Virus record (IMG/VR): IMGVR_UViG_3300037264_009183
Coordinates: 1 to 26,523 of that record
Direction: 5' to 3' (one strand)
From: a virus
Length of the DNA: 26,523 nt
A program made the position numbers and the translations under genes. Below the pieces are notes generated by a model. That model worked only from the letters and a program-made list of their open reading frames with translations, made no database searches and was not told where the DNA came from. Shown here one piece after another: positions 5,606 through 19,698 of the stretch. Positions within the stretch are counted from its first letter, which is position 1, and the number at the start of each line of letters is the position of its first letter.

Positions 5606-5679
5606 GCTCCCGTGGGCCAGAGGTTGGCCGGCACTCTCTAAAAGTGCACACGTGGGTTCGAATCCCATCGGGGGCACCA
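5606..5679 (+). tRNA. Amber-suppressor tRNA, anticodon CTA
   Basis: A complete cloverleaf is visible. The acceptor stem is 5606-5612 (GCTCCCG) with 5669-5675 (CGGGGGC), one G-T wobble. The D arm is 5615-5618/5626-5629 with loop AGAGGTT. The anticodon stem GCACT/AGTGC is perfect (5631-5635/5643-5647), with loop CTCTAAA, giving CTA at positions 34-36, which reads UAG. The variable loop has four bases. The T arm is 5652-5656/5664-5668 with loop TTCGAAT. Discriminator A5676 is followed by an encoded CCA (5677-5679). The short variable loop argues against Ser, Leu or Tyr origin; the charged amino acid cannot be told from the sequence. It lies 59 bases upstream of a gene with an in-frame TAG. Confidence 0.93.
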
Positions 5680-5738
5680 AATCCGCTTGACAGGAAGATC
5701 TTCGAGTGGCAACCTTACAGCAGAAAGAAGGAGGACAC

Positions 5739-6101
5739 ATGCGCGACACATAGGTAGCCAAGGTCGAACTCGCAAGGAAGTACGTCTACACCATCGTCCG
5801 AGCTGACCTCCCACCGGTACACCAGTTTGTCCAATCCCTTCACGCCTCCCACGAAGCTGGCATTCGATTCGGGAACGAGTCCACCATCTCCTCGATGGTC
5901 CTGTGCTCCGTCCCCGACGAAGAGGCGCTGAAGGAAACGTCCAGGCAGCTCACTGAGCGCGGCGTCCGCCACTACATGTTCGTCGAGGACGACTTCGGCG
6001 ACCAGGCTACCGCGCTCTCGACCGAGCCCATTCACGGCGTTGCCAGGAAAGTGTTTTCGAAGTATCCGCTCTGGAGGGAGATGCAGCATGGACAGGTATG
6101 A
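5739..6101 (+). CDS. Pth2-like peptidyl-tRNA hydrolase with in-frame amber at codon 5
   Basis: ATG 5739 follows a strong AAGGAGG (5728-5734) by four bases. The frame runs M-R-D-T-TAG and then is open for 115 codons to TGA 6099-6101. After the amber the protein matches phage Pth2-like proteins: YVYTIVRADLPPVHQFVQ.LH near residues 15-35, a hydrophobic SSMVLCSV strand, and FGDQATALSTEPI near residues 85-100. That family is related to archaeal/eukaryotic peptidyl-tRNA hydrolase 2, which frees peptides from tRNA. No ATG, GTG or TTG lies in frame between the TAG (5751-5753) and ATG 5895, which is already inside the domain, so full product needs UAG readthrough. The suppressor tRNA lies just upstream. 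The alternative is a pseudogene or base error. Confidence 0.75.
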
Positions 6102-6369
6102 AGCGATCCGCGCGCTCAAGGCGCGCATCAAGGATCTCGCCGCAACCCAGAAGAAGGAGAAGGCCTCCAGGAAGGGGTGCGGAGCGGACAAGATGCCCTC
6201 GCTCTGGGTGGCGATCTACTGCCGCGGAGCGGAGATCACCGCCTGCCTGAACTTCTACCTCGCGCTACGCGAGAAGAAATACAGGCACGGGACGCCGGAT
6301 GAGTACTGGGACAAGAGGTTCACGAAGGCCCTGAGCGAGAAGTTCGGAGGGGTCTCCGCGAAAGTTTGA
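6088..6369 (+). CDS. Small hypothetical phage protein, 93 aa
   Basis: ATG 6088 lies inside the end of the Pth2-like gene (14-base overlap) after GGAGGGAG. The N-terminus is a basic helix (RALKARIKDLAATQKKEKASRK). The rest contains an alternating block, EITACLNFYLALREKKYRHG, resembling short phage proteins with an 'IT.L...Y..LRGK.H.H' pattern that I know only as uncharacterised. It ends at TGA 6367-6369, six bases before the first tRNA-like element, so the RNA elements may be co-transcribed with it. Confidence 0.65.
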   Translation: MDRYEAIRALKARIKDLAATQKKEKASRKGCGADKMPSLWVAIYCRGAEITACLNFYLALREKKYRHGTPDEYWDKRFTKALSEKFGGVSAKV

Positions 6370-6375
6370 CTTCAG

Positions 6376-6456
6376 GGGGAGGTGGTGTAACGTCAGCACG
6401 GAGTGGCGCAGAAATGCGTCGCGCAGGAGGAGGTTCAACTCCTTCCCTCCCCACCA
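6376..6456 (+). ncRNA. tRNA-like element A, anticodon arm replaced by GAAA-capped hairpin
   Basis: Acceptor strands 6376-6382 (GGGGAGG) and 6446-6452 (CCTCCCC) pair perfectly, followed by A6453 and an encoded CCA (6454-6456). T6383 and G6384 take positions 8 and 9. The D arm is GTGT/GCAC (6385-6388/6396-6399) with surroundings like tRNA-Gln. Where the anticodon arm should be, 6401-6410 pairs with 6415-6424 (one mismatch, two wobbles) around a GAAA tetraloop, so there is no seven-base loop and no anticodon. AGGA follows as variable region, then a T arm 6429-6433/6441-6445 with loop TTCAACT. It should be recognisable to RNase P and perhaps EF-Tu, but cannot decode. Confidence 0.8.
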
Positions 6457-6457
6457 T

Positions 6458-6528
6458 GGCCGGGTGGTGTATAGCCGCACGGACGGGCAACCGTCAGGAG
6501 CTCGGGTCGCGCCGGGCCCCGGCCACCA
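6458..6528 (+). ncRNA. tRNA-like element B, anticodon arm replaced by GCAA-capped hairpin
   Basis: One base after element A, the same plan repeats. The acceptor GGCCGGG/CCCGGCC (6458-6464/6518-6524) is perfect, with A6525 and CCA 6526-6528. T6465 and G6466 are followed by a D arm GTGT/GCAC (6467-6470/6477-6480). A five-pair hairpin GACGG-GCAA-CCGTC (6482-6495) sits in the anticodon position, capped by a GNRA tetraloop. The same AGGA variable segment follows (6496-6499). The T arm is 6500-6504/6513-6517 with an unusual eight-base GGTCGCGC loop. Stems differ in sequence from element A while the architecture is the same, which suggests selection on structure. The T-loop is degenerate, so L-shape folding may be weaker than in A. 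Confidence 0.78.
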
Positions 6529-6746
6529 TATCAATCATCGCGCCTCGCGGCAACGAGGTGGAATTTCGTGGGGCGGCGGTGTAGTCGGGTGTCCACCCCT
6601 TCTGCATTTACAAAGCCCTGCCGCGCAAAACCGAACGGTGCCCCTATGAGTGTGGGGCTTAAAGTGGGAGGCTTAGGCCGAACACCACGCCGTTCGAGGC
6701 GCTCCCCTTTTTTGCCTTTTCGGACCCTTGGTGGTAGGATGGTTCT
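6529..6746 (+). other. Non-coding stretch after the tRNA-like pair
   Basis: No credible gene is seen. It contains a small hairpin (CCTCG/CGAGG at 6543-6547/6554-6558), a third GGTGTA box at 6578-6583 that is not followed by an acceptor match or CCA, a GCCCC/GGGGC hairpin near 6640-6658, and the terminator at 6666-6713. The last 30 bases hold the leader and start region of the next gene. A longer structured RNA covering the region is possible but not demonstrated. Confidence 0.5.
6666..6713 (+). terminator. Intrinsic terminator after the RNA island
   Basis: GGGAG (6666-6670) pairs with CTCCC (6702-6706), an inner GCC-GAAC/GTTC-GGC helix closes the middle, and six T residues follow at 6708-6713. 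The 3' half CTCCCCTTTTTTG is identical to that of the terminators at 19698 and 20704, which supports the call. It would end transcription of the small-gene operon and tRNA-like elements. Confidence 0.7.
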
Positions 6747-18860: not shown

Positions 18861-19649
18861 ATGTCACTTCTGCTGGAAAAGCTGTCACAGTGCATCATGG
18901 CTCTCGGGCAGGGATGCCTGACCCTGTTCCCGCGGGTCCGGAACGCGGATCCCAGCACGCAGGCCTGCCGGGCCTGCAAGCAGGTGGCCTACAAGGCGAT
19001 CCTCAAGGTCCTGCACGCGGACGGCCCGCAGGAAATCAAGGATTCCTGGGTCGCGATGTTCAAGATCAAGGCCCCGAAGGCGTGGATGTTTTCGCAAGAT
19101 CCCGATATCATCGGGACGTTCGCCTCAAACATCGGTGGCGTCGATGACGACGCCTGGACCCGGTGGTGGTTGGTGAACGCGATCGGCCGCGAGGAGAACA
19201 CCAGGTACCCCTCGCAGCGCAGCTTCTTCGACAGGGTCATCGCGCGTCACGCGATGAATCTCAGGGCGCACCTGCCGAAGGCGGTGGCCCCGGGGCACAT
19301 GAGCGCCCCGCTCTCGGAGGTCGTCGCCGCGAGCGAAGCGGCGCGCCCGTCCTCGCAGCCGGTGACCGTGCAGCCCACGGTGGACGTGGGCGACCTGCAG
19401 CCCGACGTCGTTCAGACTCTCGGAGACATCAACGCCCTGCCGGCGGAGACCTTCGAGCCGCCGCCCCAGGATCCCAAGCCGTCCGCCCCGTCGGTGGACG
19501 AGATCCGCGCCACGAGCGGACCCGCCAACCAGCCGCGCCGCCGGAGGGTCCGGCAGGATGCCGCCGGAAGCGTCGTCATCCCCGAGGGTGGCGTGGTCCG
19601 CGGGAAGCGGATCAGCGTTCCCAAGGAGGAGCCGGCCGAGCAGCAGTAG
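18861..19649 (+). CDS. Hypothetical protein of the plus-strand cassette, 262 aa
   Basis: AGGAGA six bases upstream fixes ATG 18861. The first 150 residues form a folded-looking, helix-rich domain with two cysteines (ACRACK near residue 36) and conserved-looking aromatic patches (WTRWWLVNAIGREENTRYP). The C-terminal 110 residues are Pro/Ala/Gln-rich and end in basic RRRRVR and acidic segments, typical of a disordered tail. It is transcribed against the flanking structural genes and has its own leader and strong terminator, so it is probably expressed independently, like a moron. The function is unknown. Confidence 0.7.
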   Translation: MSLLLEKLSQCIMALGQGCLTLFPRVRNADPSTQACRACKQVAYKAILKVLHADGPQEIKDSWVAMFKIKAPKAWMFSQDPDIIGTFASNIGGVDDDAWTRWWLVNAIGREENTRYPSQRSFFDRVIARHAMNLRAHLPKAVAPGHMSAPLSEVVAASEAARPSSQPVTVQPTVDVGDLQPDVVQTLGDINALPAETFEPPPQDPKPSAPSVDEIRATSGPANQPRRRRVRQDAAGSVVIPEGGVVRGKRISVPKEEPAEQQ

Positions 19650-19657
19650 GATCTCGC

Positions 19658-19698
19658 GGGGGAGGGTGGCATCGAAAGATGCTGCCCTCCCCTTTTTT
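19658..19698 (+). terminator. Strong intrinsic terminator
   Basis: A 15-pair stem (two G-T wobbles) with a GAAA loop at 19674-19677 is followed by six T residues (19693-19698). It lies nine bases after the TAG of the 262-aa gene. Confidence 0.93.

Follow-up and report, generated by a model that had tools for sequence, protein, structure and literature searches.

Tandem tRNA-like elements with GNRA-capped hairpins in place of the anticodon arm: a candidate family of phage RNAs

Genomic context

The window, i.e., the whole stretch of DNA analysed here, is a 26.5-kb virus record (IMGVR_UViG_3300037264_009183; 26,523 nucleotides) with a 2075-codon RNA polymerase-like gene on its minus strand. The locus of interest lies on the plus strand and begins with a tRNA with CUA anticodon, i.e., an amber suppressor (5606-5679; ARAGORN, Rfam RF00005 with 58.4 bits), which is the only canonical tRNA found within the window. 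It is followed by a Pth2-like gene (5739-6101; supported by its translation and homologues), by a small ORF of 92 codons for which no family was found (6091-6369; similar ORFs occur in the related phage records L016, L004 and L005) and by two tRNA-like elements, A (6376-6456) and B (6458-6528). Between the tRNA and the Pth2-like gene, a possible promoter with a weak -10 box can be read from the sequence (TTGACA-17-CAACCT, 5687-5715); a consensus promoter scan reported none at this position. L016 and L023 carry TTGACA-17-TAGTCT directly upstream of their Pth2-like genes.

The Pth2-like gene starts with ATG CGC GAC ACA TAG followed by 115 open codons. That is, its fifth codon is an in-frame amber codon (5751-5753) and its product would read MRDT-amber-VAKVELARKYVY... 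Counterparts lie in L004 (2451), L005 (4107), L016 (18529, minus strand) and L023 (5986), and further loci are found in the divergent jumbo phages L032 (ME3), L034-L039 and L029. The amber is located at codon 5 in the window, L016 and L023, at codon 3 in L004, L005 and ME3, and at codon 4 in GAP32, CBB, BF, SNUABM_19, Kaldavass, XbC2 and LR756511, while the homologues of RaK2, XacN1 and RAS14 have no early amber. A tRNA(CTA) was found in the window, L004, L005, L016, L023, ME3, GAP32, CBB, BF, Kaldavass and LR756511; for SNUABM_19 and XbC2, the survey was confined to the surroundings of the Pth2-like gene. The co-occurrence of early in-frame amber codon and tRNA(CTA) suggests that amber suppression may be needed to produce the Pth2-like protein. 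For XacN1, the genome authors found no target of its suppressors (PMC5852040).

The annotations of GAP32, CBB, Kaldavass, XbC2 and ME3 give the Pth2-like gene a late start; BF and SNUABM_19 have no annotated feature at its position. L004 (2780-2794) and L005 (4438-4452) show short frames with a good ribosome-binding site (MKET-amber, MRDT-amber), which sit directly after the Pth2-like gene and before their element A. In Acinetobacter phage ME3 (L032, 4573-4697), a tRNA-like element whose D loop has 5 nt and whose extra arm is long lies between tRNA(CTA) and Pth2-like gene; here, a 7-nt anticodon loop may persist.

With regard to the protein family, 9 of 10 Pth2-like homologues match PTH2 (PF01981) at E up to 1 (best E 2.2e-6). 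The protein of the window stays below the Pfam cut-off (E 0.068, 13.8 of 23 bits), and a profile of the Pth2-like proteins finds PDB 24bt, a peptidyl-tRNA hydrolase, with E 7e-4. The AlphaFold model is poor (pLDDT 49.9). Pth2 enzymes carry a GK-x-x-Q motif, the lysine of which has a catalytic role. In our alignments, this lysine is apparently replaced in the Pth2-like proteins, and hydrolysis by them is therefore not assured.

Architecture of elements A and B

Element A is a type I mimic of 81 nt, supported by sequence, folding, descriptor and covariance model. It consists of a perfect 7-bp acceptor (6376-6382/6446-6452), a D arm (6385-6399), an 8-bp hairpin with GAAA cap that replaces the anticodon arm (6403-6422; folding, descriptor) and a T arm with loop UUCAACU (6429-6445), followed by A73 and CCA. 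Element B, a type II mimic of 71 nt with the same kinds of support, has a perfect 7-bp acceptor (6458-6464/6518-6524), a D arm (6467-6480), a 5-bp hairpin with GCAA cap (6482-6495) and a T arm with a 6-bp stem and the hexaloop GUCGCG (6500-6517), again followed by A73 and CCA. Neither element has an anticodon loop.

The first-pass annotation of this DNA had described these elements as tandem tRNA mimics, and we find their coordinates, 7-bp acceptors, A73, encoded CCA and D arms as well as the GAAA/GCAA hairpins, the shared AGGA segment and the one-base gap between A and B as given there (sequence, folding, descriptor). Some of its finer points need adjustment. The D arms, called Gln-like, are present, but for A the term Gly-like fits better since a real tRNA-Gly(UCC) of unrelated phages has exactly the same D arm, perhaps a hint at where A came from. 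In A, only the first G of the D-loop GG is present. T arms were proposed for both; the 7-nt loop of A is near-canonical, while the stem and hexaloop of B are non-canonical. The replacement of the anticodon arm by a hairpin holds for both elements, with stem lengths that are unequal (8 bp vs. 5 bp). Folding supports A (z = -3.9) but less so B (z = -1.6 only), such that B rests on comparative evidence.

Like functional tRNAs, A and B form a cloverleaf that has a 7-bp acceptor and ends in NCCA. Neither contains a 7-nt loop with U33 and readable anticodon, and neither reaches the gathering cut-off of RF00005. An Rfam search of the window at E up to 1 places A and B in no family.

For scanning both strands, we used a descriptor composed of 7-bp acceptor, D arm, central hairpin, T arm and NCCA. 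It has only three matches in the window, namely tRNA(CTA), A and B. In 4,961 dinucleotide shuffles of the window, a near-identical descriptor produced 162 matches, i.e., 0.033 per window, an estimate that is not blind as the descriptor was written after A and B were known. Among the listed matches in 156 kb of DNA from other phages and from bacteria, those with a loop other than 7 are ordinary tRNAs read with a 3-nt loop.

Elsewhere in the window, a PrrB_RsmZ match at 19557-19693 stays below threshold (23.1 bits of 44, E 0.13) and is probably due to chance. Downstream of B, we do not claim a third RNA at 6535-6725 since its fold is no better than that of shuffles (z -0.77) and it aligns poorly with L016 17603-17756. 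The latter (minus strand) is a structured stretch of 154 nt between two mimics with a 9-bp closing stem and a z-score of -3.35.

Related elements in other phages

Five other phage records of 16 to 595 kb contain 11 further elements, which makes 13 elements in six records: two in the window, one each in L004, L005 and LR756511, and four each in L016 and L023. The records L004, L005, L016 and L023 (part of a 236-kb record) were found via neighbouring proteins and DNA patterns, the element of LR756511.1, a 595-kb uncultured phage, by a model search of whole records. All relatives other than LR756511 stem from one viral collection and most are fragments. The Pth2-like gene and the first mimic share a strand in the window, L004, L005, L016 and L023, with the mimic no more than 0.3 kb downstream; in LR756511 the two are about 119 kb apart and the mimic has no encoded CCA.

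The central arm is capped by GAAA or GCAA in 9 of the 13 elements; exceptions are L004 (AGCAC), L005 (irregular arm), L016 C (AUCU) and L016 D (CCGG). Arms of 8 bp with a tetraloop are present in A, L016 D, L023 2, L023 4 and LR756511, with one mismatch in L023 2. Type I comprises A, L004, L005, L016 D, L023 2 and 4, and LR756511, all with a 7-nt T loop near the tRNA consensus; L016 E combines a type I-like T loop with a longer central arm. Type II comprises B, L016 B and C, and L023 1 and 3; its hallmarks are a T arm that invariably carries GGGUCGCGCC and the D-stem 5' strand GUGU. The L016 counterpart of B is near-identical, and all differences are within the hairpin, where the cap is GAAA instead of GCAA and two pairs are G-U instead. 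Acceptor stems vary even within one array (four distinct ones in L016, three in L023), and tandem mimics are mostly 1 to 20 bases apart. By eye, the type II T loop GUCGCG (6506-6511 in the window) includes the self-complementary CGCG, and the D strand GUGU could pair with loop GCGC, for which a dimer or switch is possible.

Other searches yielded no additional members. A blastn search of the region against INPHARED phages gave nothing useful. The sole match of a pattern combining D arm and AGGA, in L002, is unrelated and attributed to chance, as are L027 and L028, which fit the type II pattern at positions where the descriptor finds no tRNA-like fold. Scanning bacterial genomes with the D-arm pattern TAGCTCAGAGAAAGAGCG gave six matches and among them no GNRA-capped mimic. 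Two Lachnospiraceae contigs (L102, L107) carry other tRNA-like sequences with D arm TAGCTCAGAGAAAGAGCG; in L102, the YrlA model matches with 42.8 and 35.9 bits (cut-off 69).

Structural conservation

To assess selection on structure, we swapped hairpin halves between elements. With their own partner, the type I arms (n=5) form 39 of 40 pairs, compared to a mean of 3.85 out of 8 per arm when swapped, and among all 120 permutations the true pairing alone reaches the observed total. The eight distinct acceptors show 56 of 56 positions paired (permuted mean 37.6). Stem sequences are wholly different among the elements, with pairing retained. That is, compensatory stem changes are present in the homologues among the records searched, where the first-pass annotation had named a lack of covariation, or homologues with a normal anticodon loop, as signs against its proposal. 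Such a loop (7 nt with U33) is found in none of the 13 elements of the six records. Its central claim, i.e., tRNA mimics unable to decode, is thus strongly supported.

Since MAFFT misaligned type I with type II elements, and A with other type I elements, we built covariance models from small, well-aligned subsets. Two models built without the elements of the window recover A (R1, E 4e-9) and B (R2, E 8e-10); R1 also matches ordinary tRNAs, as expected. This recovery is free of the post-hoc weakness of the descriptor; the source phages were nonetheless found starting from the window. Folding energies give a mixed picture. For the LR756511 element, the cloverleaf is the minimum-energy fold (z -5.8). 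L023 1, L023 3 and L004 have a lowest-energy fold other than the cloverleaf, and folding energy alone does not clearly set B, its L016 counterpart and L005 apart from shuffles.

Relatives in L023 (including elements 2 and 4), L016, L004 and LR756511 pass the RF00005 cut-off. Where ARAGORN calls a mimic, it takes the cap region for an anticodon, and some mimics are mis-called by gene finders as tRNA-Ala(CGC), tRNA-Cys(GCA) or '?(gaaa)'. Within the 236-kb record of L023, the matches of the Rfam tRNA search are limited to the tRNA(CTA) and two of the four mimics, such that the mimics there do not resemble by-products of a tRNA-rich genome; this search missed the L005 tRNA(CTA) seen by ARAGORN and may miss others.

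Possible functions

The architecture, its compensatory conservation and the linkage to an early-amber Pth2-like gene and a suppressor tRNA are direct observations. As judged from their sequences, A and B are members of a family of putative stand-alone phage RNAs, in which a tRNA body with acceptor and CCA is combined with a short helix, mostly with a GNRA cap, where the anticodon arm would be. The part for decoding is missing while the top half is kept; a partner should therefore read the acceptor, the CCA and perhaps the elbow. Among the known acceptor-stem readers are aminoacyl-tRNA synthetases, EF-Tu, peptidyl-tRNA hydrolase and several toxins (PMC11559606).

Our preferred reading, to which we assign a probability of about 0.38, is that the mimics act as decoys that occupy host enzymes reading acceptor and CCA, with the Pth2-like protein in the same pathway. 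The mimics would be transcribed and trimmed at both ends in the way of tRNAs, and would remain uncharged without taking part in decoding. They would engage enzymes that read acceptor stem and CCA but not the anticodon, e.g., tRNA-modifying toxins of anti-phage systems. The several mimics with different acceptor stems in some phages would cover several specificities, and the Pth2-like protein might, e.g., release blocked tRNAs.

The toxSAS FaRel2 selects tRNAs by G1-C72, C2-G71, G4-C69 and Pu5-Py68, and its class is implicated in antiphage immunity (PMC11559606). All four pairs are present in L023 1 and 3 (GCGGGGA, GCGGGGG), three in A and two in B; within the window the match is partial and may be due to chance. 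We treat it as a lead and not as a test. MenT1 can modify an acceptor stem with CCA in isolation (PMC10435456), and Pth removes acetylated aminoacyl-tRNA produced by TacT (PMC4942678); by analogy, Pth2-like gene and acceptor decoys could belong to one pathway. For the tRNA-like domain of YrlA, competitive inhibition of a tRNA nuclease has been proposed (PMC7790460). Type II mimics have no canonical T loop, which argues against elbow-reading enzymes as targets. The distant mimic of LR756511, which has no encoded CCA, and the apparent lack of the Pth2 lysine also speak against this reading. A wider version, namely a counter-defence module in which a non-decoding decoy array with varied acceptors and an amber-gated Pth2-like protein shield the tRNA pool from acceptor/CCA-directed defence enzymes, seems rather unlikely to us; if true, it would be unlike any described.

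In the main rival, the mimics are dedicated RNA partners of the phage's own Pth2-like protein, or regulate it; the protein would bind acceptor and T arm and be titrated, activated or guided by the RNAs. As possible roles, the first-pass annotation had listed decoys, substrates for aminoacylation and EF-Tu, RNase P or Pth2-like ligands, and the Pth2 hint gains support from the linkage to the Pth2-like gene, i.e., the close downstream position of the first mimic in five phages, and from peptidyl-tRNA hydrolase being counted among the acceptor-binding proteins (PMC11559606). GAP32, CBB, BF and Kaldavass, however, possess the amber-interrupted gene without a GNRA-capped 8-bp mimic among the tRNA-model matches listed, and in LR756511 gene and mimic are far apart, such that we consider this role somewhat unlikely.

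In five phages the mimics lie 3' of the Pth2-like gene, and this location together with the mostly short distances between tandem neighbours would also suit processing signals (tRNA punctuation), where RNase P and 3' nucleases cut and end the transcript of the Pth2-like operon; this is improbable as multiple tandem copies are unnecessary for this purpose and the LR756511 copy is away from the gene. With acceptor, discriminator and CCA intact, the mimics might serve as aminoacyl donors outside translation. Anticodon-independent identity is provided by G3:U70 for Ala and by a long variable arm for Ser and Leu. Since the mimics have neither, anticodon-independent charging is unlikely, and mascRNA, a comparable mimic, is not aminoacylated (PMC11693755), so a donor role appears quite improbable. 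That the mimics are decayed tRNAs is least credible: A has the D arm of a real tRNA-Gly(UCC) and L023 2 and 4 exceed the Rfam tRNA cut-off, but compensatory pairing, the recurrent 8-bp and tetraloop design, the prevalent GNRA caps and the perfect acceptors in six divergent records all speak against decay.

If confirmed, the elements would show that phages encode non-translational tRNA-shaped RNAs, in arrays, which are conserved across very different large phages. Phage decoy tRNAs versus tRNA-directed immunity would become a testable question, and so would the purpose of the amber-interrupted Pth2-like gene and of the phage amber suppressor. Given the mis-calls by gene finders, further mimics may go unnoticed in annotated genomes.

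Comparison with known systems

The first-pass annotation knew of no described phage element of this design. Within the open-licence literature of PubMed Central this holds, but bacterial Y RNAs do have tRNA-like domains outside translation. YrlA (RF02553) is the nearest bacterial idea; Y RNAs act with the Ro60 protein. RF02553 has no match in the window at E up to 10, and a TROVE (Ro60) protein was found in none of the 15 records searched, of which the window and its near relatives are fragments. In GAP32 and CBB (L073 52-174, L075, L082 62-180), some tRNA bodies are extended at the anticodon arm by about 60-75 nt of inserted sequence and share a CAGCAAC[CT]ATA motif; the YrlA model has sub-threshold matches in these phages, again without a TROVE protein.

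tmRNA has tRNA-like ends and no anticodon arm, but also an mRNA-like domain that is absent from the mimics, and RF00023 has no match in the window. The linked protein resembles Pth2 (PF01981) by the family-level matches and the PDB 24bt match given above, but differs in the residues at the conserved lysine, in its early in-frame amber and in the sub-cut-off score of the window member. Phage tRNAs, including amber suppressors, share acceptor, CCA, D and T arms with the mimics, which adjoin a tRNA(CTA); the mimics differ by the absence of a 7-nt anticodon loop with U33 and, in B, by the non-canonical T loop. Nearest in shape are mascRNA and menRNA of human MALAT1 and MEN-beta, which are tRNA-like with a longer anticodon-equivalent stem and a compact loop (PMC11693755); these are products of animal lncRNAs with a smaller D arm and are unrelated to the phage mimics by descent. 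Compared with these systems, the elements are best described as a kind of non-coding tRNA mimic that stands apart in its architecture and in its genomic surroundings.
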